Below, in pieces: positions 22,815 through 64,000 of a stretch of DNA of 64,000 bases. The number at the start of each line of letters is the position of its first letter. Within the stretch, counting starts at the first letter, position 1. This DNA is from Nymphaea colorata (lineage: Eukaryota; Streptophyta; Magnoliopsida; Nymphaeales; Nymphaeaceae). Under the pieces are notes generated by a model that made no database searches, was not told where the DNA came from, and was given only the letters and a program-made list of their open reading frames with translations. A program made the position numbers and the translations under genes. The stretch lies in NCBI RefSeq assembly GCF_008831285.2, contig NC_045147.1:11597427-11661426 (forward strand), written 5' to 3'.

Positions 22815-24290
22815 ATCGAGTTTGAAAGTCAGGACAGCTGTTCGTATGCATATTTTTATGGAACCCAAAACAAACCCAATATCATTTTATAATCCAAGAT
22901 AAAAAAGCCTAAACCAATTCAAATAGGAGGCAATCCTCAAAGCCACTGTTCATATCTTCTCATGCCTCTGATCATTTTCTGGTGGGCACATTTGTTCCAC
23001 CATGATCTACATAACTGTGTTCCTGGACTTACAAAAAAAAAAAAAAATTCAAGTTTATCATAGGCAAAGGTCTTGAGTAGCTACGCTTTATTGATATGCA
23101 TTCAGTCACAATCGGAACTCCGAGTCGTTGGGCTCCACGAGAAAATGTCCAGAAGGACCGGCAGGAGGAAAAACACATCTCTGCCCCTTCAGAGATAGCC
23201 TATAGAGTGCATCATATTCACACCAGTCATAAAAAACACATCTTTTTTTGAAAAAAACACGTTGAAAAGGTGGAAGATAAACTGAAGAAAACCAAAAAAA
23301 ACTCTGTTTTCTAGAAAAACGCCAACACAGACAAACACGTATTTTTTTTTGGCGTTTTTGCCTTTTTTTTTTTCATTTTGAACGTGTTTTTTACGTTTTT
23401 AATATCAAACTACTTGTTTCCATTTTTAAATTTTTTATTTGTTGTTTATCTACTTATTTTCTCATTTAATTTGTTTTTCCTTGATTTTTAAGGTTTTTGT
23501 TTTAAATTTTACAAATCTACAGTATTTTCCTTCCCTTTTTTTTCAAGTTAGATGTACCCGAGAAAAATTTGCTGTCTAAAATGTAAAAACGTTGTTTACT
23601 ATGGTTCAGACAAGCTATGCTCTTCAATTCTGAAGCCAAAAGCCTTCAAAGAGGCCTTGAAAAGGGAGTAAGGAGGCAGCATCTGAGGTCACTTCTCTCC
23701 ATAGCCTTGTTCAGGTCCTCCAGGAACAGTTTCATATCCTCCTTGATCTTCTTCTCAGTAAAAATTTCCGTCTCTGGTACTTACTTCCTCGACTCTTCAT
23801 CCCTTACGTACTGATGAAAGAATCAGATTATGTCAATGCAGCCTTCAACCATGGAAGGCAGGCAATGAAAATAACTAAGATCATACGGTACCAAGAATCC
23901 CTATGAATTCACACTTGTCCCCTGGGCTTTGTCCAAAAGTGGTGTACGAATTGACATTGAAGTGTGAATCTTTTCTTCTATGGGGATGGAATATGCGTAA
24001 ATGATTCATATTGAATCACTTGTGGACGAATTGTAGTTTTTTATGTTTAATTATTCAAGGAAACATGTGAGCTCATTTCATGTCTCAAATAATTCTGTTA
24101 CTAACGCTTCTCTTTCTGTTACTGCAATATAAAGCTTAGAGGCGTTGAGACACACAGCGCAATCCTGCAATAGAAGAAACGATGACAATTCTGGGCTTGT
24201 AGATTGAAGACCTGATAAGAGGCATTAAGGCCTTGGCTAGCCATGCACCATTTGCTGATTCATAACCTTCTCATGCCCCACCTGCATGTG
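22815..24290 (-). pseudogene. Decayed SDR pseudogene 1
   Basis: Remnant of a reductase related to copies A-D. The last-exon end is at about 23,100-23,200, giving PSGHFLVEPNDSEFRL then a stop, comparable with PSGHNFMEC.DSEF in the intact genes, but frame-shifted just before it. An AT-rich repeat (23,225-23,600) splits that exon. The 5' part of the exon is at 23,608-23,815, and an exon-4-like block at 24,130-24,290 reads YKPRIVIVSSIAGLRC on the minus strand, with an upstream in-frame stop. The nucleotide-binding exon is missing. Confidence 0.7.
23225..23600. repeat. AT-rich ACGTTTTTT repeat inserted in SDR pseudogene 1
   Basis: A-rich left half with AAAACACGTTG and a T-rich right half with TTTTTGGCGTTTTTGCC and AACGTGTTTTTTACG, able to fold as a long imperfect hairpin. 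It ends with ACCCGAGAAAAATTTGCTGTC. Equivalent insertions occupy the same place in pseudogenes 2 and 3. Confidence 0.55.
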
Positions 24291-24294
24291 CTTT

Positions 24295-24298
<4 letters not shown>

Positions 24299-24346
<48 letters not shown>

Positions 24347-24472
24347 AGATAAGGCCAAAACCCTGTCACATTAGCTTCCAGCCAGCAAACTCTCTACCCA
24401 TGTCAACATTCTTCACTACTATCCGGATAGCGCCCACCCAACTCGACTTATTGCACTACCCATCATTTGGTC

Positions 24473-24507
<35 letters not shown>

Positions 24508-24510
24508 ACC
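24299..24510. repeat. (GA)n microsatellites
   Basis: Two AG-dinucleotide tracts, about 24,301-24,340 and 24,474-24,508. Corresponding tracts occur at 34,639-34,696 and 35,770-35,819 in unit 2 and at 51,005-51,030 in unit 3. Confidence 0.9.
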
Positions 24511-24644
24511 AGCATGAACTCCAACTTATCTTGACCTTAACAAGCATGGAGTGCTTACCAAAAGTAGTGGAGTGCTGTATGTAAGCAAGTTGAGTGGTGC
24601 AGTGTAGGTGGTGGGTAGTGATTCTTTCGCTAACCCGAAAGTCG

Positions 24645-27064: not shown

Positions 27065-27336
27065 TGTTAACAGAAACCAAGGACACACTTAGAGAAAAGC
27101 AATCTTCGTCAATCAAAGTGAATTACTTGGGAGATGAAAAGTCATGTCTTTTAAGAGATGAAAAGACATGTCTTTTGGCAATTATGGACCCTCATGTATC
27201 TCATCTATATAAAAACAGATCTCTACGAAAGAAAAACAAGTCGAAATAAAGAGAGTAGTGGACGTAGACCTATTGGCTGAACTATTTTAAAAACTTCATG
27301 TTTCTTTCAATTATTTCTCATTTTTGATTTTGAACA
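27065..27336 (+). repeat. 5' LTR of the copia element
   Basis: Begins TGTTAACAG and ends AACA next to the primer-binding site at 27,337-27,351. It contains CATCTATATAAAAACAGATC, a likely TATA region. The 3' partner starts at 28,506 and differs by scattered substitutions and a small insertion, so the insertion is not very recent. Confidence 0.85.
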
Positions 27337-28505
27337 TGGTATCAGAGCGGGTTGATCATTGTTAGTGTTGCTGCTAGATTCATATAGAGTTGCTGGTCCT
27401 TGTTAGTGATGCTTGGTAGATCCAAAGATTACATCTTGTGTCATTCTTTTGGCAAATAAAGAATCATCATCATCAAATACAGGAGTCAACTCTAATACAA
27501 GTTTACAATAAGCAAACCAACTATATAGGTCGTGGTAGAAACAACTACCAATCTAGAGGAGGAAGACGAAAAAATAAACAATACAAAGTTTCTTCTAACA
27601 CTTTGAATCAAGACACTGGAGATGACAATTAGTATTCTAACTCCAGTGTGACTCATCACATCACCAACATTATCAACAACTTATCCATTCATGCTAAATA
27701 CAAAGGTGGAGATGCAGTAAAAATTGGAAATGGATCAGTAGGAAACATGAAAAATTCTTCATAAAAAAACTAACAGTGATGGACTATACAAGATGGACAC
27801 AAAAGACTTGGTCACCTTTCATTTTTCATTGTTAAGAAGCTCCAGTAGAAAGTGCGAATGGTTTCAAGTACTATGTAATTTTTATAGATGTTTTTTCAAG
27901 ATTGGGGAGGAGAATTTTAAAGCATATCTTGTCGATAATGAGATTGGATATAGAATATCATGTCTTCATAACCTTGAACAAAATGGAGCAGCTGAAAGGA
28001 GAAAAACATATCGTTGAAACATGTTTATCTTTAATGGCAGAAGTAATGTAGATTAGGCAAGATGTCTTGATGATAGACAGTCTACAAATGGATATGCAAT
28101 ATTTATTAAATCCAATCTAGTTTCATGAAGTGCTAAAAAGCTGCCTATGGTTTTAGAACTGAGGCTGAGTATCGATCTATTGTTAATACTACTGTTGAAA
28201 TCATGTGGTTACAAATTTTATTAAAAGAACTTCGTGTTGCTCAATCACAACCTCCATATTATGGTGCGACAACATCGGCACAACCTATCTTGCAGCTCAT
28301 CCTGTGTATCATAGCCGCAACAAATACATAGAAATTGACCTTCATTTTGTTTGAGAAAAACTGGTTAAAGGAGATATGAAAATTCAATACATCTCTTCCA
28401 AAGATTAGGTTGCTGATATTTTAACTAAGCCACTTAGTGAACAACACCATTATCAAATAATTAACAAGTTCAATTTCATTACTAGAGCATTGAGTTTGCA
28501 GGGGA

Positions 28506-28738
28506 TGTTAACAGAAATACCAAGGAGGCTCTTAGAGAAAAGTAATCTTCGTCAATCAAAGTTAATTACTTGAGAGATGAGATGAAAAGTCACGTCTTTT
28601 GAAAGATGAAAAGTTATGTCTCAGGGAATTAGGGACCCCTCAAGTATCTTCTCTATATAAAGGTAGATCTTTATGAAAGAAAAATATGTCAAAATAAAGA
28701 GAGTAGTAAACGTAGGCCTATTGGCTGAACCACTTCAA
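28506..28738 (+). repeat. 3' LTR of the copia element, 3'-truncated
   Basis: Aligns with the first part of the 5' LTR up to CTATTGGCTGAAC and then passes into host sequence GCCTCCCCTACC, which is continuous in the paralogous empty site near 60,105. Confidence 0.8.
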
Positions 28739-29008
28739 TAGCCTCCCCTACCTAAAGTTTTTTTTTTTCAATTGTAAACGGAAGAAGATCCGACGCTGGC
28801 TTCCCATAGCCGGCAGACGATCTGCAGGCGAGGGGAGGTCGGCAGCGGCAATGGGGGAGGCGACGCCCTTTTGCTTTTAAGAGAGGCAGACACCAGACGC
28901 TCGACTTGCTTTTTTATTGAAACAAAATGAGGGCCGACCATGGACCGGGCAAACCAGCCGAGCAAAAAAATGCTCAGTTGTATCTGAGTGGAAGGAAATA
29001 CGTTTTCT

Positions 29009-30538: not shown

Positions 30539-31663
30539 TCAGAACTCAGAGTCCACGCATTCCATGAAATTGTGTCCAGAAGGACCATCAACGGGGAAGA
30601 GAGCAACTCGCACTACGTTTTCAGCTCCTTCAATGGGTGAGAGGTTGCCTGTACAATCCGTCATATAAGTTTTCACGGCCCCAGGGTGCACACTGTTCAC
30701 ATAAGCTACGCCATTCAACTGAAGGGCTAAAAGCCTCGAGTATGCGTTCAAGGAAGCCTTCGAAATGGAGTAAGCAGGCAACTTGAGTGGCCACTTCTCC
30801 ATGGCCTTCTCAGACTTGAGGTCCTCCAAGAACAGGTTCAGTACCCCATCGATCTTCTGCTCTGTCAAGCCCTCTGTCTCCAACAGTTGCTTCCTCAGCC
30901 CTTCATCCCTAATATACTGATGAAACAAGTTGACAACCCGATTATGTTTGAAGCAGGGAAAGGACACCTTAAACTACCAACACATCAAGAGAAATTTAAT
31001 GGAGCACTGCTTAATGAAATAGAAGAATTTAGTAGAACAGAAACTACTTATGCTATCAAGTTTGATGCTACCGCTGCTATTGTAAATAGTATGGCAGTGG
31101 TAGAACTCACACATAGCTGTCCTGCAATGGAAGACACCATGACAATCCTGGCCTTGTGAGGGGAAAGGCGGAGGAAAGGGAGTAAGGCCTTGGTCAGCCT
31201 CACGGTTCCATAGTAGTTGGTGTCTATGCACTCCTTTGCTGATTCATAACACTCCCTTGTCCCACCCGCGGAGTCAAAGTTCGCCTGCAACACCAATATC
31301 AGTGCAAGGTAAGCTACCTCCAGAAATACGAACTTCAAGCAAGATAATGTTTTGATGGGGATGAAACCCGAAGGCATGAAGTAGGAATGGTTGGTTTGGT
31401 ATCACTAATCAATCCTTCAAAAACTACTATACAGATAAAGTATCATGTGTTTTTCTTGTTTCTGAAAATTCATCAGCTGGGTTACACACACACATAGAGA
31501 GAAGAAGTTGGAGGTGGTGTGAAGTGGGGAGAAGGAGGAAGAAGACAATAGCCGGTCCACTGAGAGAACTATTCTTAATCATAAGATTAACACACCTCAA
31601 TACCATCACGATAAAACTCTTGAAGACTGAAATGAAGAATGTGGTCATTGCAAGCCACCCAAC

Positions 31664-31695
<32 letters not shown>

Positions 31696-32290
31696 AGAAA
31701 GAGAGAAAAAAAAAAGAAAAAGAGCCGATAAAATAAGAATTCATAGCAAATTTTTGGAAACAAGAAGTCTTCTATATACAAAAAAAAACCACAAAAACAA
31801 AAATAAGACAAATATGCAAGAGAGAGAAAGAAAGAGTACCAGAAATGTATTGGGGTCCACATTGTTGTGTTCCATCAACTTCCAGTTTACCTTTGCCTTT
31901 AGAATAGCAGCATTGTTTACCTACATCAACAAAATATGTTTTTATTAAAGCAATGAAGATTATAGGTACATTTAAAAAAAAAAAGGTAAGAAGAACCGAA
32001 AATCCTGTAAAATTCAAGGAAAAAATTGTGGGTGAATTTCCTTTAAAGTGCTTTTACATGGTGCTTTCCACTATATGCTGGTTGGAAATCGAATCAAAAC
32101 CCTTTTTTATCAAGAATTTCATTTTTTTTTCTGGGATTATATTTTTCCAACCGGGCAGATCCTCAAAGTAACTTCTCAACATAAGAAAACTTCTACAATT
32201 ATCGATCGTTCTTTTGAGAAAAAATTTGGAAAACAATCTTCCTCTTTGGAACAAAAATAAAACCAAGTTGTATCACAATAACAAAATTGG

Positions 32291-32353
<63 letters not shown>

Positions 32354-32915
32354 AAGTTTTTCTTCAAATTTCAAGCAGATCTTTTTTAAGAACAAATTGC
32401 ACGTACGGCTTGCTGCAGCTTAATGTTTGAGACATTTACGAGATGAAGATGAACGCATACCGTCGACCTACGAGATTTCATTTCTGCTTACCAGAATGTC
32501 GACGAACCCAACACGTAATTTCAACCAGTCGACGAATTCCAGCACACTTTGCTGTTGAGTGATATCCAGAGTGTGGAAGATGACATTCTTCCTCTCTGCT
32601 TCAGCTGCTTCTTGCAGGAACTGTTGAGCAGGGACTGAGAGTTGCTCATGTGGCTGACGAGCAGTCATGATGACGGTGATCCCCTTGTGTGCGAGCTGCC
32701 GGCAAACCTCCAGCCCGATCCCTCTGTTCCCTCCCGTCACCACCGCCACCGTCTCCCCACTCCACCACTCTGATTCCTTTGCTTCCTGCAACAACACAAA
32801 AAAGAATCATATCTTTCTCATCGAAGACCAAGAGGTCAGAGCCTTGTTCCCTACGTGGCATAAAGTAAATTCCCAAGTTCGCACGAGGGCCATTCCATGA
32901 AGAGAAGCTCACCAT
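30539..32915 (-). CDS. Short-chain dehydrogenase/reductase copy A (carbonyl reductase / menthone-salutaridine reductase-like)
   Basis: Five-exon SDR predicting 309 aa, the usual size for this plant NADPH-dependent carbonyl reductase group. Exons on the minus strand: 32913-32915 (only the ATG), 32492-32785, 31840-31920, 31111-31284 and 30539-30916, all phase 0 with GT/AG introns. Motifs in order: WWSGETVAVVTGGNRGIGLE (Rossmann TGxxxGIG), DILVNNAA (NNAG variant), ECIDTNYYG (structural Asn), ARIVMVSSIAG (catalytic Ser), PAYSISKASLNAY (catalytic YxxxK), and the tail GPSGHNFMECVDSEF. The catalytic tetrad is complete, so it is probably active; the substrate is unknown. The start was chosen because ATG|GTGAGC joins in frame to CAG|GAAGCAAAG, giving MEAKESEWW. 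Coding is intact throughout. Confidence 0.85.
31669..31695. repeat. (TA)n in SDR A intron 3
   Basis: Dinucleotide run just past exon 3. Equivalent tracts lie in the same intron of B (43,280-43,320, followed by (GA)n), C (47,547-47,604) and D (63,548-63,590), with different lengths. Confidence 0.9.
32296..32350. repeat. (TA)n in SDR A intron 2
   Basis: About 27 dinucleotides. The matching position in B (44,353-44,378) is half as long, and in C (about 48,606-48,616) nearly absent. Confidence 0.9.
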
Positions 32916-33083
32916 TTTCCTGGAAAGTACTGGTCCTGCAATTAGCGCAACTATGCGACAATCTACCGCAGGCTTATTGTGAAAATGGTAGGATTAATCG
33001 GAATCGGACTAGGAAGGAGGTTCAGTCGAAGCAGGAAATATCTCTAAGCATGAGCACGCCAACATAAAGAGTCACCTCGCGCA

Positions 33084-33129: not shown

Positions 33130-34600
33130 ATCTTCCTGTTGAACTGATCGAGTTTGAAAGTTAGGACAGCTGTTGGCATGCATATTTTGATGGAACCCAA
33201 AACAAACCCAATATCATTTTATAATCCAAGATAAAAAAGCCTAAACAAATTCAAATAGGAGGCAATCCTCAAAGCCACTGTTCATATGCCTCTGCATCAT
33301 TTTCTGGTGGGCACATTTGTTCCACCATGATCTACATAACTGTGTTCCTGGACTTGACACAAAAAAAAAATTCAAGTTTAACATAGGCAAAGGACTTGAG
33401 TAGCTACGCTTTATTGATGTGCATTTAGTCGCAATCGGAACTCCGAGTCGTTGGGCTCCACGAAAAAACGTCCAGGAGGACCGGCAGGAAGGAAAGAGCA
33501 ACACGCGCTACATTCTCTGCCCCTTCAGAGATTGCCTATTGAGTGTATCATATTCACACCATAGTCATCAGAAAAAACACGTTGAGCAAAAAATAAGTCA
33601 ACTAAAGAAAACGAAAAAAAAAACTCTCTTTTTTGGAAAAATGCTAACACAGACAGACACGTTTTTTTTGGTGTTTTTGCCCCTTCTTTATTCATTTTGT
33701 ACGTGTTTTTCACGTTTTTAATCTCAAACAACTTGTTTCCATTTTTTAATTTTTATTTGTTGTTTATCTACTTATTTACTCATTTATTTTATTGTTCCTT
33801 GGTTTTTAAGTTTTTTGTTTTAAATTTTACAACTCTACAGTATTTTCCTCCTTTTTTTTCAAGTTTGTTGTACTCGAGAAAAACTCACTGTCTACAATGC
33901 AAAAATATTATTTATGACTATGGTTCATACAAGCTATGCTCTTCAATTCAGGAGCCAAAAGCCTCAAAGAGGCCTTGAAAAGGGAGTAAGGAGGCATCAT
34001 CTGAGGCCACTTCCCTCCATTGCCTTGTCTGGCTTCAGGTCCTCCAGGAACAGGTTCACAACCTCCTTGATCTTTCTTCTCTGTAAAAATCTGTCTCTGG
34101 TACTTACTTCCTCGACTCTTCATCCCTTACGTACTGATGAAACAATCAGATTATGTCAATGCAGCCTTCAACCATGGAAGGCAGGCAACGAAAATAACTA
34201 AGATCATATGGTACCAAGAATGCGTATGAATTCACACTTTGTCCCTTGGACCCTTGGGCATTGTCCAAAAAGTGGTGTACGATTTGAAATTGATGTGTGA
34301 ATCTTTTCTTCTACGGGGATGTAACATGCCCAAATGGTTCATTTTGAATCACCTGCGGATGAATGGTACGTTTTTATATTTAATTATTATAGGAATCATG
34401 TGAGCCCATTTCATGTCTCATATAATTCTATTACTAACGCTGCTCTTTCTGTTACTGCAATATAAGCTTGGAGGCGTTGAGACACACAGCCCAGTTCTGC
34501 AAGAGAAGAAACGATGACAATTCTAGGCTTGTAGACCGGAGACCGGATAAGAGGCATTCCATGCTTCATTTGCTGATTCATAACCTTCTGATGCCCCACT
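33130..34600 (-). pseudogene. Decayed SDR pseudogene 2
   Basis: Same architecture as pseudogene 1. The tail block (about 33,425-33,545) retains ENVARVAL on the minus strand, then shifts frame before EPNDSEFRL, and the original stop is lost (CGA instead of TGA). An AT-rich repeat (33,570-33,890) interrupts the exon. The 5' half of the exon is at 33,930-34,140, and the exon-4-like block at about 34,450-34,600 reads YKPRIVIVSSLAELGC. It lies directly upstream of SDR A on the minus strand. Confidence 0.7.
33570..33890. repeat. AT-rich ACGTTTTTT repeat in SDR pseudogene 2
   Basis: Same repeat and same insertion site as at 23,225-23,600, ending TACTCGAGAAAAACTCACTGTC. Confidence 0.55.
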
Positions 34601-34614
34601 TGCATGTGCTTTAC

Positions 34615-34621
34615 ACACACA

Positions 34622-34696
<75 letters not shown>
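34615..34696. repeat. (AC)n(AG)n compound microsatellite
   Basis: An AC run of about 24 bp passes directly into an AG run of about 58 bp. The other two units carry only the AG part. Confidence 0.9.
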
Positions 34697-47085: not shown

Positions 47086-47544
47086 CTTGGTGTCTATGCA
47101 TTCTTTTGCTGATTCATAACTCTCCCTTGTCCCACCCCCGTAGTCGAAGTTCGACTGCAACACCAATATCAGTGCTAGGTAAAAATGTGAACTTTAAACA
47201 AGATAATGTTTTGATGGGGACAGATCCCAAAGGCATTAAGTAGGAATGGTTGGTTTGGTATCACTAACCAATCCTTCAAAACCTACTATACAGATAAAAT
47301 ATCATGTGTTCTTGTTTTTGAAAATTCACTAGTTGGGTTACACGCACACATACACACATACAAACACACATAAAGAGCAGAAGTTGGGGGTGGTGTGAAG
47401 TGGGGAGAGCGGTCCACTCGACAGAACTATGCCTAATGATAAGATTAACACACCTCAATACCATCACGATAAACACTCTTGAAGACTGAAATGGAGAATG
47501 TGGTTATTACATGTCACCCAACCCTGCGGGTTGTACTACCCAGC

Positions 47545-47545
<1 letters not shown>

Positions 47546-47626
<81 letters not shown>
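47546..47626. repeat. (TA)n(GA)n in SDR C intron 3
   Basis: A TA run with one interruption, then a short GA run abutting the exon 3 donor, as in copy B. Confidence 0.9.
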
Positions 47627-49429
47627 AAACCAGAAATGTATTGGGGTCCACATTGTTGTGTTCCATGAACTTCCAGTTTACCTCTGCCTTTTGAATAGCA
47701 GCATTGTTTACCTACATAAACAAAATATGTTGTTATTAAAGCAGTGAAGATTATAGGGGCAATTAAAAAAAAATGGTAAGAACAGCAGAAAATTCTTAAA
47801 AATTCAAGGGCAAAAAGTTTGTTGGTGAATTTCCTTTACAGTGCTTTTACATGGTGCTTTCCACTATGTGCTGGTTGGAAAATTCAATCGAATCCAATTA
47901 TTGTTGTTTGGATAAACTCGTGGTCATTTCTGTATAAAACTATTTCATTTGTACAAACCATAGTTATTTATGGTAGGTTACAGTACCGCAGCTAGCTAGA
48001 AACCAAAGTTCGGTATGGTAGGTTCGACTCCATTGAGTAAGTTTTATTAAATAGGTGCAACAAAATGTCCCACCCAAATTATGGCATTCTCAATGTACGG
48101 AAAAATGAAGGAATATTTCTTCATCATAATAGCTTCTTAGGGCGCCTGATTAGCCAGAAGAGAGTTTCATATTCCACTTAATTCGTGGAACTTCAACCTT
48201 TCGTGACGATCGAGTGATATCTTTTTCCCATACTAGTTTATCTACAGAATGCTCTCCACCTCATTTGTTTATAGCGTTTTCAAAGTTTCAATTTTTAGAA
48301 AAACCGCTCACCCCTTAGTTTTGTGCTTGTACGAAAAGGTTTCTTGAAAAATTTTGTTTCCCAACTATTTAGTTTGCTGCGAAAATAATTAGTTCGCAAA
48401 AACCATTTTTTATCAAGAATTTCATTTTTTTTTTCTGGGCATACATTTTGTTTAGCCGGGCAGATCCTCCAAGTAACATCTAAACATAAAAAAACATCTA
48501 CAATTATCGATCGTTCTTCCGAGAAAAATTTTGAAAAATCATCTACATCTTCCTCTTTGGGACAATAATAAAATCAAGTTGTATCACAATAACAAAACTG
48601 GTTATAATATATATAGTAACGTTTTCATCAAATTTCAAGCACATCATTTTTAAGAACAAATTGCACGTACGGCTAGCTGCTGCTGAATGCTTGAGACATT
48701 TAGGAGATGAAGATGATCGCATACTGTAGACCTACGAGATTTCATTTCTGCTTACCAGAACGTCGACGAACCCAACACGTAATTTCAACCAGTCGACGAA
48801 ATCCAGCATACTTTGCTGTTGAGTGATATCCAGAGTGTGGAAGATGACATTCTTCCTCTCTGCTTCTGCTGCTTCTTGCGGGAACTGTTGAGCAGGGACT
48901 GAGAGTTGCTCCTGTGGCTGACGAGCTGTCATGATGACGGTGAGCCCCTTGCCTGCGAGCTGCCGGCACACCTCCAGCCCGATCCCTCTGTTCCCTCCCG
49001 TCACCACCGCCACCGTCTCCCCACTCCACCACTCTGATCCCTTTGCTTCCTGCAACAATACAAAAAGAATCATATCTTTCTCATCGAAGCCCAAGAGATC
49101 AGAGCCTTCTTCCCTATGTGACGTAAAGTAAATGCCCAAGTTCGCATGAGGGCCATTTCATGAAGAGAAGCTCACCATTTTCCTGGAAAGTACTGGTACT
49201 GCAATTAGCCCAACTATGCGACAAACTACCACAGGCTTATTGTGAAAATAGGAGGATTAATCAGCAACGGAGTAGGAAGGACGTTCAATCGAAGCAGGAA
49301 ATAACTCTAAGCATGAGCACGCCTACATGAATAGTCAGCTCGCGCACTTATGTAATTTGTAGAACCCTCGTTAATTGACTTGTCGATCTTACGTTGCATG
49401 CAAACAACAAATATGTCAAAATTGGTTAT

Positions 49430-51003
49430 ATTCAGCAGCGTGCATTTAGTCGCAATCGGAACTCCGAGTCGTTGGGCTCCACGAAAAAATGTCCAGAAGT
49501 ACCGGCGGGAAGAAAAGAGCAACACGCGTTAGATTCTCTACCGGTTCAGAGATTGCCTATAGAGTAGAGTATATCATATTCACACCATACTCTTTTATAG
49601 TCATTCGAAGCTGTCACAAAAAATATGTAGAGGAAAAAAATATGGGTATAATACCATAAAGTTTTATATGTCAATAATAAAACGAAAAAAGTTCGGCAAA
49701 TTTAAAAAAAACATTTAAAATAACTTAAAAATTATAAAAAATAAAAATTTAATAAAAAACGCAAAAAACACAAAAAAGTGGAAAAAACAGGAAAAAAACC
49801 GTATAATATGAGTATTATACACGTTTTTTGTTTTTTGACTTTTTTTTAAAAAAATGCATTTTATTCCCATTTTATATGACAGAGGTGTTTTTGGTGTATA
49901 ATACTTGTTTTTTAAAAGGTGTTTTTGGCGTATAATATGCGTTTTTCTTATAAAAACAGCGTTTTTTGTGACAAGAAACACGTTGAGAGAAAAATAAGTC
50001 AACTAAAGAAACGAAAAAAAAATCTATTTTTTTTTTGGAAAAACACCAACACATACAGACACGTTTTTTCTTGGCGTTTTTGCGCCCTTTTTTTCATCTT
50101 GGATGTGTTTTTCACGTTTTTAATCTCAAACAACTTGTTTCCATTTTTTAATTTTTTATTTGTTGTTTATCTACTTATTTTCTCTTTATTTCATTTTTCC
50201 TTATTTTTAAATTTTTGTTTTAAATTTTGCAACTCTACAATATTTTCCTCCTTTTTTTCAAGTTTGATGTAGAAGAAAAAAACTCCCTGTCTAAAATGCA
50301 AAAGCATTGTTTATGAATATGGTTCATACAAGCTATGTTCTTCAATTCAGGAGCCAAAAGCATTCAAAGAGGCCTTGAAAAGGGAGTAAGGAGGTAGCAT
50401 CTGAGGCCACATCCCTCCATAGCCTTGCCTGGCTTCAGGTCCTCCAGGAACTCGTTTACATCTTTCTTCTCTGTAAAACTCTGTCTCTGGTACTTTCTTC
50501 CACAACTCGTCATCCCTTACGTACTGATGAAACAATCAAATTATGTCAATGCAGCCTTCAAACATGGAAGGCAGGAAATGAAAATAACTAAGACCATATG
50601 GAACAAAGAATGCGTATTGTCCCTTGGGCTTTGTCCAAAAGTGGTGTACGATTTGACATTGATGTGTGAATCTTTTCTTCTATGGGGTTGTAATATGCGC
50701 AAATGGTTCATATTGAATCGTTGTAGATGAATGGTACGTTTTTATATTTAAATTATTCTAGCAATCATGTGAGCCCATTTCATCTCTCAAATAGTTGTAT
50801 TACTAACGCTGCTCTTTCTGTTACAGCAATATAAGCTTGGAGGCGTTGAGACACACAGTGCAGTCCTGCAATAGAAGAAACGATGACAATTCTGGGCTTG
50901 TAGATCGAAGACAGGATAAGAGACATTAAGGCCTTGGCTAGCCATGCTTCATTTGCTGATTCATAACCTTCTGATGCCCCACTTCCATGTGCTTTACATA
51001 CAA
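49430..51003 (-). pseudogene. Decayed SDR pseudogene 3
   Basis: Third copy of the old pseudogene. The tail block (49,440-49,545) again shifts frame before EPNDSEFRL. A longer AT-rich repeat (about 49,650-50,290) interrupts the exon. The 5' half of the last exon (50,347-50,535) reads FHQYVRDDELWKKVPETE and later YSLFKASLNAFGS, with the catalytic Tyr context partly kept. The exon-4-like block (about 50,870-51,000) reads YKPRIVIVSSIAGLHC. The nucleotide-binding exon is absent. Confidence 0.7.
49640..50290. repeat. AT-rich ACGTTTTTT repeat in SDR pseudogene 3 (longest copy)
   Basis: Contains GGGTATAATACC near the left, an internal GTATAATATGAGTATTATAC inverted word, TGGTGTATAATAC and GGCGTATAATATGCG words, then the same AAACACGTTGAG...GGCGTTTTTGCG...CACGTTTTTAATC body as the other copies. 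Some 300 bp at the left are absent from pseudogenes 1 and 2. Confidence 0.5.
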
Positions 51004-51171
51004 AGAGAGAGAGAGAGAGAGAGAGAGAGAAGGCCAAAACCTGCAACATTAGCTTCCAACCAACAAAAGCTTCTTCCCATGTCAACATTCTTCAATACCA
51101 TCAGGATAACCTTTTAAGAAATTAAATCGAGGAAGGGGTGAAATTAGATCTTCAATATCATTCAAGAGTAG

Positions 51172-51556: not shown

Positions 51557-51958
51557 TCTGTGAGAAAAAGAGAAGGGAGAAGAAACTAAGTATCACTTTA
51601 AAACAATCTCTCTTTTTTATTTTCTCTAAAATTTGATTGCAATTCTAAAAAAATTAGGATTGGCAACTCCATGCGTTTAGAAAATAAATAAATCTTAAAA
51701 TCACAACTAGAAAGTTCATACCTTACGAAAGACATATACAGGCAAGAGGTGGAACGAAGTCCTAGGATCTCGCAATAACAACTTGCTAAGGGATGCGGCC
51801 CACCTTTATTAAACAAAATGAACTAAACAAAAAAGGAATGGATAGCAACAGAAAAACTGCTATCCTTCATATACAGTATAACCAAAGGCTGACTCAGCTC
51901 TTCAAGAGTACACTTGTCATAACTTAAAATAGAAGAGAAGAGTAAAAATCAGTGTAAG

Positions 51959-52348
51959 TTAGCCTGCACACAAAAAAACGTCCCTCCACTCCTTGATGTG
52001 AGAAGTAATGAAGGAGCCAAAATCATTTGTAAGATAATCCATTTCAACGTTAACATTGTAAGGAAAGTCTTTGACAAGCCTGTGGAACTCTAACCATATT
52101 CTATTACCGTCATAATATCGCCGCATCCTCCGAATGAGGGCTTCTATCCTGGAGCAAATGGTAACACAACCACCATACTCCTTATGATACATGAACAACT
52201 TTTTCAGCACCTCCAACTCACCTGCGAGTACCTTGCCCCTTGGACTCAACAATATAGCCATACCGTTCGCTCCATCACTAAAATAAGAGTTTCCAGCAAC
52301 CCTCCACTTCCCAACGATTTGGACTTGTGTGACCTCAAAGAAAAACAT
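51959..52348 (-). pseudogene. LINE RNase H-like C-terminal region
   Basis: A 129-codon minus-strand frame containing KWRVAGNSYFSDGANGMAIL...GKVLAGELEVLKKLF and then ICSRIEALIRRM, resembling the RVT_3 RNase H of plant LINEs, but the acidic active-site pattern is not clearly kept. Confidence 0.5.
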
Positions 52349-52372
52349 ATTCAGAGGTTTGCTACAGGTTCG

Positions 52373-53040
52373 CTATGCCTGGCAGAGGTTAGAAATGGCC
52401 CAAGTGCGTATTGTGCCTTCTATTTCCTTGGTCCGTTTGATGCGCAAGAAGGTGTCCACACATGTAGACCATATATCTTCTTTAATATTAATGGCTGCAC
52501 TTGATTTGTCTTCATGAGTCAGCCTATTACGATGCCACCAGATTCGCCAGCAAACAATAGGGAATGTGATTCTCCAACACATGCTCAACAATCTATCATG
52601 CACCTTCTTATGCATCCACCGTTTGATTTTAAACTGAAAGTTGCGAGTGGGTGAATAGATGACACCAAACTTGGCTGAGATCCATTCCCATATTTCTCTG
52701 GTTGCCTTGCAATGGAGGATAACATGATCATTAGTTTCTTCAGGAAAAACTTTCCTGCAAAAAAGACAACAGTTAGCAAGTTGAAAGCCTAGCTTCTTGA
52801 TTCTGTCTAAAGTGAGTAAGCCTACCCTCGCTCTCAAGGAAGCTAAACCAGCAAGCACTAGATGGAGCTTTTCCGTGCCAAATATATTTCCTCCAGCTCT
52901 CTCTCTCACTCGCTCCCATAGTATGATTGAGAATGTCATCAACTCCAGTACAAGCTTGATGGTTGTCTCTCCAAACAACCTGGTTAACTTCGTTAGAGAG
53001 AGGAATAGAGTCTAACATGCCAATGAGGCCCAAACACACT
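52373..53040 (-). pseudogene. LINE zf-RVT region
   Basis: Reads GNIFGTEKLHLVLAGLASLRARVGL, then LTLDRIKKLGFQLANCCLFCRK...ETNDHVILHC, the C-x2-C...H...C zinc-finger of LINE reverse transcriptases, then ITFPIVCWRIWWHRNRLTHE. One long 201-codon frame is preserved. Confidence 0.8.
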
Positions 53041-53049
53041 TCCCCTAGC

Positions 53050-54960
53050 TCAAGAGCACCTTATCTTTAATCGAGATATTGAGTTCCCTCGCAATGTGAA
53101 CATAATTGTCTCCATTAATCCTCTGGATAAGTGCGCTGCCTGCCAAGGATTGAGCAAAAAATGACAGTGGCTGCCATCCCCAAGCTTCCACTCTGTCTTA
53201 TTTTGTATAAGTCTCCAACCCCAAACAAAGACCCTTCCAACCCCAGCTACCTCTAATAGTCTCATTAAGTACAAAGACTGTTCTTTTGGAGATATTTATC
53301 CTTGCACACCTTGGCCCAGATGCCATCATCCATCAAGAGTCTGCTACACCTACTAGCCAACAATGTGCGATTCAAGTCATCCACTCTATGTAATCCAATG
53401 TCCCTAAGATCATAAGGATTACACACTCTAGCCTAGTTGATATGGTGTATATGACGAGTAGACTCACCATCATTCCAAAGAAATCTCATGCAAATGTTTT
53501 CAAGTTTTTTACTTATTCTACGAGGGAGCCGGAACACTATCATCCAGTATTGGGGAAGGGTAGACAACACATATTTAATAAGAAGGTACACCCTTCAAAA
53601 GAGAGGATGAGAACTTTACAGCCCGCTAACTTACTTTCCATTTTGGTTAGCAGTGGATAACACATGTCCTCAGTGAGTCTACCATAAAAAAAAGGAACTC
53701 CAATATAGTCAGCTGGAAGAGAGCCCATCGGCCAATGAAGGATGTTTCTGATATCCTCTACCCTACAGTCTAGAGTTTTGTCCAAGAAAACAACAATTTT
53801 TTTTTGTTTACTTTCATATCAGCGAACTTCTCAAATTGCTCTAGTATCTCTTTAATGGCACGAAAAGAACTAATAGAGGCCCTAGATACCATGAGAACAT
53901 CATCTACATACATAACCGCATAACCGCACCTGTCTCCTGAGATACATTCCGGACCTGGGAATTTGGATGTTCTTATTGCGAACCTCCACTTGAATACGAC
54001 GATTGAAGATTTCCATAACTAGAATAAAAAGGTATGGGGACATCGAGTTCCCATGTTTGAGTCCTTTAGAAGCAGTGAACCTGTCTCCCAAACTACCATT
54101 AACCACAAGCTCATACGACACTGAAGAAACACATTTCATCATTAACTCTATCTATCTGGAGTGAAATCCCAGCACATATTCTAAGAAACTCTATCATACG
54201 CCTTTGACAGATCCAATTTAAGAAAGCAACTCACTTTCAACCAGAAATCTTTAGAGTTTGCGGTCTCATTCGCCCATAAAAATGTTGTATTGAATTTGCC
54301 CCCTTTAGAGAAAGCAACTTGATTCCTTTGAACTAGTCTCATGATTACATCCCTTATCCTAATTACTAGGATTTTGGCAATAACCTTTTAAATGGTGTTG
54401 CATAAAGATATAGGCCTGTAATCCTCAACCATGATGGCATTCGGTCGTTTTGCTATCAAGCAAATCATGGTGTGGTTAACACTACCAACAAGTTTAGCTT
54501 TTAAGAAGAAATCCTGAACAACTGCTTCCACATCATCTCCGATGATGCTCCAACAATCCATGTAAAAATAATTTGGGAAACCCTTTAGGCCAGCAACAAT
54601 ATCTTTGTTAAGGCTCTTTACTACCATAACTATCTCCTCTCTTATGATAGGTCAGAGCATCCATTGGTTCTCTTCTTCACTAACTATGTCGCCATCAACT
54701 ATACCTGCAAGCAACTCTCCAAAAGCTACATTAGATCACAAAAACTGCTAGAAATGAGATGTACAAGCCTGCAAGATATTAGCCTCCATTGTATGAGTAC
54801 CCATATCTACTTCAATGACCCTGATATACTGCTTAGCCTTACGATAATTGACCATAATATGAAAGAAAGAAGTGTTTTTGTCCCCCTCTGCGAGCCATCT
54901 AACCTGAGACTTTTGCTTCCACATCACTTCTTCCATACGAAGGGCCTCATTAAGCAATCC
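53050..54960 (-). pseudogene. LINE reverse transcriptase region
   Basis: Blocks in order on the minus strand: EVMWKQKSQVRWLAEGDKNTSFFH (54.75-54.96 kb), GLKGFPNYFYMDCW...HTMICLIAKRPNAIMVEDYRPISLCNTI (54.39-54.63), ASKGLKHGNSMSPYLFILVMEIFNRRI (54.0-54.1), MYVDDVLMVSR with the YVDD active site at 53,899-53,910, PADYIGVPFFYGRL and LAGCKVLILSFEGCTFL (53.54-53.79). The frame shifts several times, including just before YVDD. Confidence 0.85.
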
Positions 54961-55086
54961 TCTAACCTCGTATTCCTGTTTGGTGGCCCTCGTATTCCTC
55001 GTATTCTCAACAAGAAGCCAGCTCTGGTCGAGGCGAAGATGAAGGTTTTCAATTCGGCGCTCTAACCGACCAAACTTCTCTACAAT

Positions 55087-55961
55087 CTATCGCAACAAGG
55101 CAGATTTAAGCCCTAGCTTCTTAAGAAGTCTAATCAAGGGGCATCCAGTGACATTGGAGCCCCATTCCTTCTTGACTATATCCAACCCATTCAAATCCAT
55201 GATCCAAGGCTTGAAGATCCTAAAAGGAGGATGGTGCTTGTTCAGTCTACCTTTCATGATCGTCTGATATACTAAGAAGCTGTGATCAAAAGTGGAGAAA
55301 GTGAAGACTTTGAGCACTCCTATACAATCAAACTCAAAAATCCACTTATCGTTCACAAAACACTAGTCAAGCTTACACAAGACAGTATGTGGCCCCAATC
55401 TATGATTAGACCACATAAATTTCTTGGAGGGATCTTCTACTTCAACAACAGGAAGGAGACAATGAAATGATTAAAGACCAACGAAGATCTAGCAAGAGGA
55501 AAAGCTCCCGTTTTGTTCCAGCTAACTATCATCGCATTGAAGTCTCCTCTAACCATACAAAGACCATTGATCCTAGAGACCACGGCCTCAAGCCGAATAA
55601 GGCTCTCTAGCCTATCCATCAGCCTCGTAGGCAAGTAAATACAAAAAATTATAGTTTCTCTGCCATCGCGAAGATCCTTCAAACACATTCCAACCCAATA
55701 AGTGTCCAGAATAGAACTGAGAACTTGCACAACATTCTTCCTCCAAAAAGACATAATTCTACCCCTACCATTAAGCACAATATCGTTAGACAATAAATCA
55801 TACCCAGCAAACTTGTTCATAGTAGCATGCAACTTATGTGAATCAAGCATAAAATCAGAGACGAATCCAAGCTCAAGCTTCGCTTGAAAAACAAAGACCC
55901 TCAACTCCTTTTGAGGCTTCATCCTTGCAAGGCCCCCGATATTTCTGTACAGTACCTTCAT
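55087..55961 (-). pseudogene. LINE endonuclease region (EEP family)
   Basis: Starts MKVLYRNIGGLARM, then the family's usual order ...VSDFMLDSHKL, GRGRIMSFWRKNV, IIFCIYLPT and CMVRGDFNAMIVSWNKTGAF. The Asn-Ile-Gly-Gly start and GDFNAM block match apurinic endonuclease-like proteins of plant LINEs. It is broken by a frameshift near 55,440 and continues at 55,087-55,356. Confidence 0.85.
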
Positions 55962-56112
55962 GGGAGAGAATTTGAGTTATTTTCATGAGGCTCACATGCC
56001 TCCATAACATCCCGATGGGATCCCTCCCCTTCAACGGAGGTGGCATCTGCGATGTTCTCCAATTGAGCAACCTCCCCTTCTGGCCTGACCACCATCTTCC
56101 TCTGCTTGGAAC

Positions 56113-56488
56113 TAGGGGTGGGCATCGGGCCGGCCTGACCAGGTAAGATCCAGCCCGTCGGGCCCGAAGCCCGGGCCCGGCCCCGGCCCCGGCCCGATAA
56201 CCCGGGTCCCGGCCTGGGCCCGACCCGGCCACCACACGGCCCGACACGTTTGATAATAAAAAATTATTTTTTATTTAAAATATATTTTTAATTAATATAA
56301 AATATATTTCAATTATGAAATACACATTATTAAGTTTAAAAAATAATAAAAAAAATATTTTTTCTAAATTATTAACGGGCTGGATCGGGTCGGGCCAGGT
56401 CGGGCCGACCCGAGCCGCACAACCGGGCCCGAGACCGGCCCGATAGCCCATTTTCTTGGCCCAGGCTCGGGCCTGACGTCCACTTTTA
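56113..56488. mobile_element. 376-bp non-autonomous hAT element with perfect 8-bp target duplication
   Basis: Flanked on both sides by CTTGGAAC (56,105-56,112 and 56,489-56,496). Ends are imperfect inverted repeats: TAGGGGTGGGCATCGGGCC at left, TAAAAGTGGACGTCAGGCC on the complement at right. The interior is a GGGCCCGGCCC-rich left part, an AT-rich centre and a CGGGCCGACCCG-rich right part. No coding capacity. It is nested in the LINE, so it inserted later. Confidence 0.85.
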
Positions 56489-57189
56489 CTTGGAACGAGG
56501 TGAGTGAGCCACAAGGAGCTCGATCAGGCTAATAGGCTTCAAGGGGGGTCTCCCCTTCTTCCCCCAACCCATATATCTGATGCCCTTTTTTGGCCCCTGC
56601 CTGCTATTGATATACTTCTCTTTGCATAATGAATCCGACTCCTTGGAAACACTCGGAAAATTTGAGCACCGGAGTCTCCTCTCCTCTGGCGACTAGTCGG
56701 GGCTAGCATCTTTATTTCCATACAGGTTCAATGAGAATTCGGGAGGCCCATCCTTCCTAAAATTATAGTTGGAGCTAATATGCATTAAATTGGCAAAACG
56801 GGTTTGGGTTAGTTGCGTTACCTCCTGCCTATCGATTAGAGGCTGCACTGGTATCGATTAGAGGCTGCACTGGTAGAAGCACGACTGCTGTTATGGGCCT
56901 TGAATTTGCCTTTTCATTTAGTGGCTTCAGGATCACCGGCCTTGTTCTATCTCCTCCCTTGTGCTCCCTTGAAGGATCGGTTGCTAGCTGCTTCATATTC
57001 AGCCCTATCATGTAGCTGGGAAGGTCGAGCGTCCTGCTGCTTATCCCAATGAGGACTAAGAACCAATTGACATCTGTCCCAACCAGGTTAGGGGGTTTCT
57101 GCTGATTCCCCGTCTAGCTTCTGGTTAAAATCTTGACATTGCTCCACTCGTCCTTGTTCTCTTCCTCCTCACTCCTTGCGGCTTAAAGT

Positions 57190-58218
57190 TTACACTGGTT
57201 AGAGAAGTGGGAAGTTGTCCCACACCTGTGACAACACGATTCTCATACCAAACTTCCTAAGTGTGTTTACAGACCCCATCCACAATGATGGAGATATTTG
57301 GGATCGGTCGGAAGCTAAGACGCACTTCGATACAAATGCATGCATATCCCAACCTCTCCATCTGGAGAGTGCAACTATCAGCCCTCACAAAAGACCCACC
57401 CAAGGCCTGTGAGATGAACCTGTAACTGTAATCTACCCAAAAAACCGAAGGAAGTGGGGACAAATGAATCCAAATGGGCACGGACTCCTCCTCGTTGATT
57501 TTCATAGTCATTCCTGGCTTGCACCCGCTAGCAATAAAAAATTGACCCCCTATCGACCATGTTCGGCGTCTCAGAACCATCGCCAGTTCTTCCTCTGAGG
57601 AAACCCTCACCAAGAATTGGCCATTGCCGATGATGGAGAATCTCGGGTTAGCAACCGACACTGACATCCTTCTCAGCTCTTCAAAGTTGTGCTTGAAGTC
57701 GAGACCAACATTTTGGCGCCCCTAGTACAGACTTGCAATTGCTGAGAAACTGAACCTCTGTTCCATTTTCTGATAGACTTCGCTCGGAAAATTAATGTTA
57801 ACCTCATTTGCAGACCTTACCACTGAGGCCGCAGGCCAATCCTCCTCCTCCTCTGCCCTGCCCCGTGAACCACATTGGCCCAGCTTTTACCTCGAATGAT
57901 ATCTCCTCCACTAGCTCCATTGTGCTGCCCAACACTGCCCTGCCCCGTGAACCACATTGGCCCAGCTTTTACCTCGAATGATATCTCCTCCACTAGCTCC
58001 ATTGTGCTGCCCAACAGAGCCAGGAAGCCCTTCCATAGCAGCTGTAGAGTCGCCCTGAGGTTCAGGCCCCTCTTCCCCCACATCGCCCCATGGCATTTCT
58101 CCCCCTGCTTTTGGCTGGACAAGGAAACGTGCTTCCCTGGCTGCAGAACCTGCTTCACCTGTTGGGCTCCAAGATGAGGAAAAGCAGAGACGTCATCCAG
58201 ATCATCTCTGCTGCTCAT
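57190..58218 (-). pseudogene. LINE ORF1 (DUF4283 and CCHC zinc knuckle)
   Basis: A start at 58,218 (MSSRDDLDDVSAF) is followed by an 82-bp tandem duplication that shifts the frame. A 136-codon frame at 57,257-57,667 reads FSIIGNGQFLVRVSSEEELAM...VPIWIHLSPLPSVFW, the DUF4283 RNA-binding-type domain of plant LINE ORF1. Just beyond it CHRCGTTSHFSNQC (about 57,193-57,236) forms a C-x2-C-x4-H-x4-C zinc knuckle. Confidence 0.8.
57853..58016. repeat. 82-bp tandem duplication in LINE ORF1
   Basis: Two adjacent units, 57,853-57,934 and 57,935-58,016, each beginning CTGCCCTGCCCCGTGAACCA. They look identical by eye. The period is not a multiple of three. Confidence 0.9.
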
Positions 58219-58281
58219 CCCCCCATGGAAGAAAATGAAACCCTAACCTTCCCCTCTTCCCCGCTCGCTCTCTCACAACCT

Positions 58282-61160: not shown

Positions 61161-61379
61161 GTACTGAGTAACTAAAGAACTGGTCCTCCGTTTTGACATT
61201 TTGCAAATCTCTCATGAGATGTAACATGTGAACAATATTAGATCGAGAAGAAAACGTTTTCTTGGAAGTGAACCATGCGTCATAGGTTGCAGTAATGTGG
61301 ATGATTTGGCTCAGCCACTAAAAAGAGGTTCCGAGACAGTAGCATTAATCCAGCTTATAGCAAGCTAATCAACCCTCCT

Positions 61380-61850
61380 CCATGTATGAAAAGCCAGATC
61401 TTTCTTATTATAACCTTTAACCAGGAACTTGCCAGGGGCAAGAGTTGAAGCACCGTTGCATTTGAGAAGGTGCTGACTATATATGGCTGGTTCAATTTAT
61501 GACCTTCATAAAAGATAGTTGTTGTTATTGAATTTTACAGGATGCAAAGATATTGATCTAACAACGGCTGATTTAACAAAAATAAGCTTTGATTCCATGC
61601 TAGAAGATATTCATCTAATAACAGCCGATTGAACAAAAATAAACTCTGATACCATGTTAGAATTTATATTTACGACAATGAGGGGAGATCGGAAGCAACA
61701 AGGGCCACACACGCAAATGGAAAAGCATGGTTTGGTGAGATAACCGCGATATGTCAACCTTCTTCAACGATTCTTCACGAGAGTAGATAATTCATTCCGT
61801 GTTGTTACAAGGTTACACGGCTTAGATTTATGCACACAAATCTGGCATCG
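61380..61850 (-). mobile_element. Copia 5'-end fragment: LTR end, PBS and truncated Gag, unit 3
   Basis: On the minus strand TTCTAACA|TGGTATCAGAG (junction near 61,656) is an LTR end plus tRNA-Met primer-binding site. Leader sequence follows with two related words ending ATGAATATCTTCTA and ATCAATATCTTTGC, then the Gag start CATCCTGTAAAATTC. It corresponds to 29,531-30,000 in unit 1. Confidence 0.6.
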
Positions 61851-62384
61851 TAGTCGTAGACACACACAACCAGTAGGTCGAGGAAAGCAAGAAAAAGGGA
61901 GAGAAATGGCTAGAAAATTGAAGAAGCTAGCTAGACATTAAATTTCTTATAAACAATCTCAAGAATAGAGCCACATATCTACATATGACTCCAGAACCAT
62001 CTCATCTACGTACGTGTATATCCTTGCCATCCGACATATCTAGGCAACAATTTTTCTTCTTAATACTACTGATAAAACAACCGAGGAAACTGTGTTCGCA
62101 AGAGCTTGATCAGCCACTTAGGGTGGCCTTGGTTGAGTGCACACTTTTGATTTCGATAGAACCATCAGAGTATTCAATTACAACCCAAGAAATCCAAACA
62201 AAAAAAAACAGTATATACGAAGGACTACCCCTGTAATCAAGCAACGTTTCATATCCAGATAATGCCGGTATCATGGAGCACTTTGGCTACATAATTATAA
62301 TGTAGATAACAGTATTTTGACGTTATTTACATAATCAAACTACTAGTGTAGGCAGAGTTCGGATTGAACTGTCCTTGGTGGCCA

Positions 62385-63542
62385 TCAGAACTGAGAGTCC
62401 TCGCATTCCATGAAATTGTGTCCGGAAGGACCATCAACGGAGAAGAGAGCAACTCGCACGACGTTCTCGGCTCCTTCAATGGGTGAGAGGTTGCCTGTAG
62501 AATCCGTCATATTAGTTTTCACGGCCCCAGGGTGCACACTGTTCACATAAGCTACGCCATTCAACTGAAGGGCTAAAAGCCTCCCGTATGCGTTCAAGGA
62601 AGCCTTGGAAATGGAGTAAGCAGGCAACTTGAGTGGCCACTTCTCCATGGCCTTCTCAGACTTGAGGTCCTCCAAGAACAGGTTCAGTACCCCATCGATC
62701 TTCTGCTCTGTCAAGCCCTCTGTCTCCGACAGTTGCTTCCTCAACCCTTCATCCCTAACATACTGATGAAACAACCCGATTATGTTTGAAGCAGGGAAAG
62801 GACACCTTAAACTACCAACACATCAAGAGAAATTTAATGGAGCACAACTGAATGAAAGAGAAGAATTTTGTAGAGCAGAAACTACTTATGCTATCAAGTT
62901 TGATGCTACTGCTGCTATTGTAAATAGTACGGCAGTGTTAGAACTCACACATAGCAGTCCTGCAATGGAAGACACCATGACAATCCTGGCATTGTGAGGG
63001 GAGAGGCGGAGGAAAGGGAGTAAGGCCTCGGTAAGCTTCACGGTTCCATAGTAGTTGGTGTCTATGCACTCCTTTGCTGATTCATAACTCTCCCTTGTCC
63101 CACCCCCGTAGTCGAAGTTCGACTGCAACACCAATATCAGTGCTAGGTAAAAATGTGAACTTTAAACAAGATAATGTTTTGATGGGGACAGATCCCGAAG
63201 ACATGAAGTAGGAATGGTTGGTTTGGTATCACTAATTAATCCTTCAAAAACTACTATACAGATAAAGTATCATGTGTTCTTCTAGTTTCTGAAAATTCAG
63301 AAGTTGGGTTACACACATACATACAAACACGCATAAAGAGCAGAAGTTGGGGGTGGTGTGAAGTGGGGAGAAGGGAGGAAGAGGACAATAGCCGGTCCAC
63401 TCGACAGAACTATGCCTAATCATAAGATTAACACGCTTCAATACCATCAGGATAAACACTCTTGAAGATAAACACTCTTGAAGACTGAAATGGAGAATGT
63501 GGTCATTACATGCCACCCAACCCTGCCTGTTGCTCTAGCCAG

Positions 63543-63592
<50 letters not shown>

Positions 63593-63689
63593 AGAGAGAG
63601 AAAGAGACCAGAAATGTATTGGGGTCCACATTGTTGTGTTCCATGAACTTCCAGTGTACCTCTGCCTTTTGAATGGCAGCATTGTTTAC
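62385..63689 (-). CDS. Short-chain dehydrogenase/reductase copy D, partial (exons 3-5)
   Basis: Fourth SDR copy, cut by the right edge. Exons 63609-63689, 62949-63122 and 62385-62762 are intact with GT/AG introns and phase 0. They encode VNNAAIQKAEVHW, ESAKECIDTNYYGTVKLTEALL, ARIVMVSSIAGLLC, PAYSISKASLNAYGRLL and GPSGHNFMECEDSQF, so the catalytic Asn, Ser, Tyr and Lys are kept. The nucleotide-binding exon and start codon should lie beyond 64,000, as intron 2 is about 1 kb in B and C. Its exon 5 is closer to copy A than to B (YVNSVHPGAVKT). It is probably functional if exon 2 is intact. Confidence 0.8.
63548..63600. repeat. (TA)n tract in SDR D intron 3
   Basis: A TA run followed by AGAAAGAGAG next to the exon 3 donor, as in B and C. 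Confidence 0.9.
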
Positions 63690-64000
63690 CTACATCAACA
63701 AAATATGTTCTTATTAAAGCAGTGAAGAATTTTGGTACATTAAAAAAAAAAAAGTAAGAGCAGAAAATTCTTTAAAATTCAAGGGCAAATATTTTGTAGG
63801 TGAATTTCATTTAAAGTGCTTTTACATGGTGCTTTCCACTATATGGTGGTTGGAAAATTCAATCAAATCCAATTATTGTCGTTTGGATAAACTGTTGGTC
63901 CTTTCTGTATAGAATTATTTCATTTGTGCAAACCATAGTTAATTATGGTAGGTCATAATTGTGGCATTCTCAATGTAAAGAAAAAAAAGAATATTTCTTC

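Follow-up and report, generated by a model that had tools for sequence, protein, structure and literature searches.

The 64,000-nucleotide stretch of Nymphaea colorata DNA analysed here (the window) contains the left part of a tandem array of SDR genes that spans about 155 kb of one chromosome. Very probably the array arose by local duplication, was shuffled by transposons and gene conversion, and carries intact copies that encode predicted NADPH-dependent ketoreductases. It represents ordinary gene-family growth together with one clear recent patch of copy-to-copy transfer, and at present stands as a well-resolved case of ordinary tandem-array evolution. It documents extensive local growth of a family of reductases in an early-diverging flowering plant. 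The array is not named in the portions of the literature available from the one open-access library searched.

Extent and repeat structure of the array

At E<=1e-10, self-BLAST of the window returned 172 repeat pairs, of which 21 reach 300 bp or more. The same 21 long pairs were obtained from the part right of 22 kb alone, while the left 22 kb alone gave a single repeat pair, shorter than 300 bp; in a control, all five of five first-order simulations gave no repeat pairs. Unit-scale direct repeats fill the window to the right of 22.8 kb, and repetition begins at 22814, the left edge given in a preliminary description of this DNA. Of the three units in that description, 1 and 3 carry the 26-30 kb spacer, which is mostly missing from unit 2. 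A hAT-like repeat had also been proposed, a label that was rejected for the unit-1 spacer, as a BLAST comparison with its reverse complement revealed no long terminal inverted repeats.

In size the array far exceeds the window, beyond whose end it continues for about 94 kb. Family pieces through 158 kb all lie on one strand, except for chance-level matches, and within the window SDR copies A, B, C and D and relics r1, r2 and r3 are all on the minus strand, as first described. Exon 2 and at least one further exon are present in 11 copies, seven of which (A, B, D, E, F, G and J) have open, canonically spliced phase-0 models and four of which (C, H, I and I2) are broken. Further family copies lie elsewhere in the genome, on C1, C2, C3, C9 and C15.

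The three older SDR pseudogenes of the preliminary description were confirmed by self-BLAST and tblastn. Relic r1 (22814..24349, minus strand) is a remnant of SDR exons 4-5 at the left edge of the array; r2 (33146..34687) and r3 (about 49430..51110) follow on the same strand. All three share a deletion of 27 bp in exon 4 and an insertion in exon 5, so the relic was dead before it was copied. Divergence among the relics is 9.8-13.6%, and their comparison, together with the unit-scale repeats, bears out the segmental duplication originally proposed. The array very probably grew by repeated local duplication of units carrying this already dead relic, most likely through unequal crossing-over, and was later rearranged by transposons and by gene conversion. 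Plant enzyme families include other tandem arrays of this kind with gene conversion, which the present array resembles in its direct orientation, dead copies and conversion patch. There is no fundamental difference from such arrays; here a dead relic was copied with the units.

Transposon insertions and assembly integrity

Each unit carries a private transposon insertion for which uninterrupted sequence is found in another unit. In unit 1, an LTR-flanked insertion (27066..28740) is bounded by two direct repeats of about 230 bp that are 82% identical (27065-27290 and 28506-28738 by self-BLAST), and its empty site lies at about 60105 in unit 3. A DNA transposon insertion at 37510..41875, which we take to belong to the PIF/Harbinger superfamily, has the terminal inverted repeat GAGGTCGTTTGAT and a 3-bp TTA target duplication; sequence matching its insertion site is uninterrupted in unit 1 near 30270 and in unit 3 near 62120. 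The LINE insertion of unit 3 (51775..58280, minus strand) encodes zf-RVT and DUF4283 domains and is flanked by an imperfect target duplication of about 14-15 bp, with an uninterrupted counterpart at 25220-25234 in unit 1. A presumably copia-like fragment (45960..47086, plus strand; breakpoints relative to B) replaces about 235 bp of exon 4 and intron 4 of C. It contains a polyprotein open reading frame (46156-46695) and had no Pfam matches at a threshold of 0.001.

Tandem repeats are prone to assembly artefacts, and near-identical stretches such as that between A and B could have come from unpurged haplotypes or misjoined long reads. Such an origin is highly improbable. The private transposon insertions of the units argue against an artefact, and the haplotype version was rejected on these insertions together with the divergence of the relics; in addition, the 304 kb examined contains no N, and related clusters exist on other chromosomes.

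SDR gene models

Four copies of the five-exon type are present in the window, in agreement with the earlier count of at least four reductase copies, but not all are intact there: C is a dead pseudogene and D runs past the end of the window. The five-exon structure, including phase-0 introns with GT-AG ends, was confirmed for A, B and D, in which exon 1 consists of the ATG codon alone. These three minus-strand genes each encode an intact protein of 309 amino acids, with an open frame and canonical splice sites. Gene A (30539..32915) has exons at 32915-32913, 32785-32492, 31920-31840, 31284-31111 and 30916-30539, and gene B (42148..44942) at 44942-44940, 44812-44519, 43454-43374, 42885-42712 and 42525-42148. 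Gene D occupies 62385..64000 of the window with exons 3-5 (63689-63609, 63122-62949 and 62762-62385), and its exons 1-2 lie past the window end (65144-65142 and 65014-64721). In copy C (45555..49178, minus strand), exon 4 is truncated at 47087 by the copia-like fragment and exon 5 has lost the 30 bp that held the codon for the catalytic Lys. Beyond the window, F and J were given a putative exon 1 on the strength of an ATG|GTGAG match upstream, and copy J contains a second, partial exon 4 inside its intron.

Protein family and predicted catalysis

Protein B contains a short-chain dehydrogenase domain (PF00106, E 5.3e-33), and its full-length PDB matches agree with the initial assignment to plant SDRs of the menthone/salutaridine-reductase type. 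With protein B as the sole query, 11 PDB sequences were matched at E<1e-10, and the top five were 5o98 alcohol dehydrogenase 1 (E 2.9e-58), isopiperitenone reductase (two sequences; E 9.5e-55 for the enzyme), menthone:neomenthol reductase (E 8.3e-54) and salutaridine reductase (E 3.2e-53). Sequence similarity supports membership of the SDR114C type, which includes salutaridine, menthone and isopiperitenone reductases (PDB 3o26, 5l51 and 5lcx); protein B resembles these over its full length and shares their Asn-Ser-Tyr-Lys tetrad. The extra segment that precedes the catalytic Tyr aligns with salutaridine reductase except for one gap of a single residue. Several differences were also apparent: the NNAG motif of SDR114C is NNAA in five of the seven open array copies, isopiperitenone reductase is longer after NNAA than protein B, and an exon 1 reduced to the start codon is unlike the SDR114C enzymes. 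A WWS-ETVAVVTG start is probably shared with Arabidopsis SDRs of the At5g61830/At5g51030 type. Substrate class is not transferable, because the best-matching solved enzymes are distant in sequence.

Catalytic Asn, Tyr and Lys are present in all seven open copies and Ser in six; copy E has Ala in place of Ser, so the tetrad is complete in six of the seven. All seven carry the cofactor motif TGxxRGIG, in line with the TGxxxGxG of classical SDRs, whereas the Mentha enzymes have TGxxKGIG, stated in one study to predict NADP(H) preference (PMC4988501); the Arg is likewise basic, yet different. According to the same study, Tyr at the catalytic site accompanies ketoreduction and Glu is the switch to an ene reductase (PMC4988501). 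An ene reductase like isopiperitenone reductase was rejected, as the residue is Tyr, not Glu, in seven of seven. The retention of Tyr and Lys in all seven open copies predicts that they are ketoreductases. The intact copies are probably expressed and would act as NADPH-dependent ketoreductases on small lipophilic carbonyls through a Ser-Tyr-Lys-Asn mechanism. At dS values of about 0.05 to 0.8 from one another, the seven candidate enzymes are material for tracing substrate divergence.

Across the 21 pairs among the seven open copies, dN/dS was 0.24-0.63. The 18 pairs other than those among A, B and D gave 0.24-0.41; values among A, B and D were 0.50-0.63, based on 11-13 synonymous differences and not demonstrably below 1. 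These data bear on the view that the array is decaying, its copies being duplication by-products of little function and mostly dead or dying. The broken copies C, H, I and I2, several broken relics and the loss of catalytic Ser in E are in keeping with decay, but the seven open frames with conserved splice sites, the dN/dS of the 18 pairs, and retention of the TATATAAA box and 5' region in both copies inspected (A and D) make it unlikely.

Genomic neighbourhood

The preliminary description considered plausible a lineage-specific metabolic gene cluster, which would place SDR copies beside further enzymes from a single pathway of terpenoid or alkaloid metabolism. SDR114C members function in monoterpene and alkaloid metabolism (PMC3541173), and 92 putative terpene synthase genes are given for the N. 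colorata genome (PMC7015852). Across 304 kb, a six-frame scan for motifs revealed a single P450 motif, some 116 kb to the left of the array, together with 15 DDxxD matches, too unspecific to bear on terpene synthases. It found no UGT, BAHD, O-methyltransferase or 2OG-dioxygenase motifs, although motif scans are weak evidence of absence, and the neighbours recognized by eye included a receptor kinase, an ACS-like gene, a PPR gene and a transporter. The cluster is not supported because partner-enzyme motifs are missing nearby, and we consider it very unlikely.

Gene conversion between A and B

The 5' parts of A (32230..33065) and B (44280-45092), both on the minus strand, are near-identical, with two mismatches in 806 aligned columns and length differences of 30 bp and 7 bp. 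Because mismatch across the remaining gene is 4-18%, the tract is a clear case of recent gene conversion. In the final run test, which omitted C, the A/B run length was reached by none of 20000 shuffles. The AD and BD runs were reached by 14 and 33 of 20000, respectively; both lie above most shuffles but comprise only 9 and 10 sites. The BD and CD runs of the first run test, which included C, are unreliable because C is non-homologous across its insertion.

Exon 2 across subclades

Between A, B, D and J, dS was 0.15-0.17 in exon 2 as against 1.17-1.36 in exon 5. Exon 2 appears unusually alike between two subclades, which is only a lead. It is possible, though doubtful, that an ancient exchange or conversion gave the subclades a common cofactor-binding exon 2, with continued divergence of the substrate-binding exons 3-5, a form of modular concerted evolution. 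One half of the enzyme would then be homogenised and the other left free to diversify. The A/B tract, joined by the exon-2 pattern should that be confirmed, would provide a clean example of conversion confined to one functional half of an enzyme. Recent conversion of exon 2 across the whole array was kept only as a lead, as the signal looked strong with seven genes and weakened once C1 and C2 genes joined: with seven genes, the exon-3-5 topology was rejected for exon 2 by the AU test (p=0.006), whereas with four C1 and C2 genes added (11 genes) the exon-5 topology was not rejected for exon 2 (p=0.476). None of 15 exon-2 three-point tests was significant. With the added genes, AIC preferred separate branch lengths by 24 and BIC proportional ones by 37. 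A codon shuffle (n=5000) of the seven-gene stage covered eight gene pairs; exon 2 was as low as observed in no shuffle for AJ, DJ, DF and EJ, in 12 each for DG and FJ, in 69 for DE and in 1080 for GJ.

Extent of the tandem array

Self-comparison of the window (C10:11597427-11661426) returned 21 repeat pairs of at least 300 bp, none of them inside the left 22 kb, and no such pair was obtained in five simulations run as a control. The recurring units of short-chain dehydrogenase/reductase (SDR) sequence reported in the preliminary description are therefore real, and the SDR pieces in the window lie on the minus strand, as had been stated. On the plus strand their order is r1, spacer, A, r2, spacer, B, C, r3, spacer, D, where letters denote SDR copies and r1-r3 older SDR relics. 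The family search was extended by 100 kb to the left of the window and 140 kb to the right. Left of 22.8 kb, the left flank included, no family match was better than E 0.15; to the right the array extends as far as 158 kb (window coordinates), and a final fragment lies at 177 kb. The full array is larger than could be seen from the window, and the initial count of at least four reductase copies included one, C, that is dead. The locus is a real, well-formed tandem SDR array, a fresh example of an already known kind. Between genes F and G, beyond the window at about 105.3-118.2 kb, lies a large block of repeats, diverged and in both direct and inverted orientation, with a spacing, judged by eye, of roughly 600 bp.

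Exon 5 was used as a query against the whole genome (407.8 Mb, 783 contigs) and gave at least 24 matches: at least 13 in the array on contig C10, at least four on C2, at least two each on C1, C9 and C3, and at least one on C15. Smaller clusters of the same family were seen at C2:2992597-3008500 and C1:22623189-22632424, and one of the C1 copies carries a frameshift in exon 4.

Gene models and predicted activity

Seven of the 11 copies retaining exon 2 and at least one further exon were intact by sequence. Each intact gene has five exons separated by phase 0 introns. Exon 1 consists of the start codon only, with a donor of the GTGAG or GTAAG type directly after the ATG; the cofactor half of the protein is encoded in exon 2. 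Exon 3 opens with [V/I]NNA[A/G], the end of exon 4 lies a few codons past the catalytic Ser, and exon 5 encodes YxxxK and the C-terminus. The predicted proteins, each with a single terminal stop, are 309 (A, B, D, F and J), 308 (G) and 303 (E) amino acids long. The broken copies are C, H, I and I2. Copy I is reduced to exons 2-3; in copy C a copia-like fragment has taken the place of a stretch of exon 4/intron 4 about 235 bp long, and exon 5 lacks 30 bp, the Lys codon among them. The fourth intron of gene J contains a second, partial exon 4 with a donor-like end (155.2-155.5 kb, window coordinates).

Protein B matched PF00106 and could be aligned almost end to end with plant SDRs of solved structure. 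PMC3541173 describes SDR114C as the salutaridine/menthone/isopiperitenone reductase family, and according to PMC4988501, Tyr versus Glu at the catalytic position divides ketoreduction from ene reduction in this reductase group. The Ser and Asn columns were placed using the alignment of protein B to the solved SDRs together with the residue numbers given in PMC4988501. Tyr and Lys were present in all seven intact copies and Ser in six, from which ketoreduction is predicted as the likely chemistry, with no particular substrate implied. Gene E (67039-71151, window coordinates), in which Ala occupies the catalytic Ser position, nevertheless retains an open frame, and its dN/dS relative to the other copies is 0.27-0.41.

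Duplication history

All three relics share a 27-bp deletion in exon 4 that removed the Asn-containing segment, and in all three exon 5 is split by a shared insertion. These common lesions place the death of the relics' source ahead of the copying of the units. Pairwise, the relics differ by 9.8-13.6% (146/1497, 166/1219, 127/1211). Among A, B and D dS was 0.054-0.064, compared with 0.25-0.26 for these genes versus E and 0.63-0.72 versus F, G and J; dS of E versus F, G and J was 0.70-0.79. Each duplicated segment also carries a private insertion at a point where a sister unit is uninterrupted: unit 1 has an LTR-flanked element, unit 2 a PIF/Harbinger-like element with a TTA target duplication, and unit 3 a LINE. 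The relic lesions and divergence, the dS values and the private insertions are consistent with local duplication, and a haplotype duplication does not fit them. The unit 3 LINE contains a perfect 82-bp tandem duplication (window 57853-58016).

Gene conversion between A and B

Differences between A and B were few in the 5' part (1/180 upstream, 0/127 in intron 1, 1/294 in exon 2) and more frequent in the rest of the gene: exons 3, 4 and 5 had 6/81, 9/174 and 18/378, introns 2, 3 and 4 had 94/536, 66/444 and 9/186, and the downstream sequence had 5/120. The near-identical tract extends from 33065 to 32230 in A and from 45092 to 44280 in B, with two mismatches in 806 aligned columns and length differences of 30 bp and 7 bp. 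In the comparison of A, B and D, the longest run of A/B agreement, 33 of 295 variable sites, was matched in none of 20000 shuffles; the AD and BD runs were short (9 and 10 sites) and were attained in 14 and 33 of 20000 shuffles, respectively. The A/B conversion tract is solid. B and D are nearer to each other in exon 4/intron 4 (4/174, 5/186) than they are in intron 2 (77/947) and intron 3 (47/457).

Exon 2 similarity between clades

Two clades were compared: clade I comprises A, B, D and E together with two copies from C2, and clade II comprises F, G and J with two copies from C1. Over the 30 interclade pairs, dS was 0.15-0.52 in exon 2 versus 0.90-1.67 in exon 5, saturation of exon 5 adding noise to this comparison. 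Inside the clades the two exons gave mostly similar dS, the exceptions including F-J (0.23 in exon 2 versus 0.61 in exon 5) and A-E (0.14 versus 0.37). It looks as though exon 2 was exchanged between the clades long ago, a reading taken here only as a lead: a seven-gene AU test, codon shuffles and AIC supported it, and an 11-gene topology test, BIC and three-point tests did not. This pattern is the sole part of the array that might turn out to be unusual.

Neighbouring genes

A motif scan of 304 kb found no UGT, BAHD, OMT or 2OGD motifs and a single P450 motif, which lies to the left of the array at a distance of about 116 kb; it also gave 15 matches to DDxxD, an unspecific motif. The ORF at window 1534-1974 (minus strand) had no Pfam match at 0.001; this ORF and others, as far as 2.5 kb beyond the left end of the window, resemble an ACC synthase-like gene. 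ORFs recognised by eye as LRR receptor kinase lie 5.2-8.1 kb left of the window.
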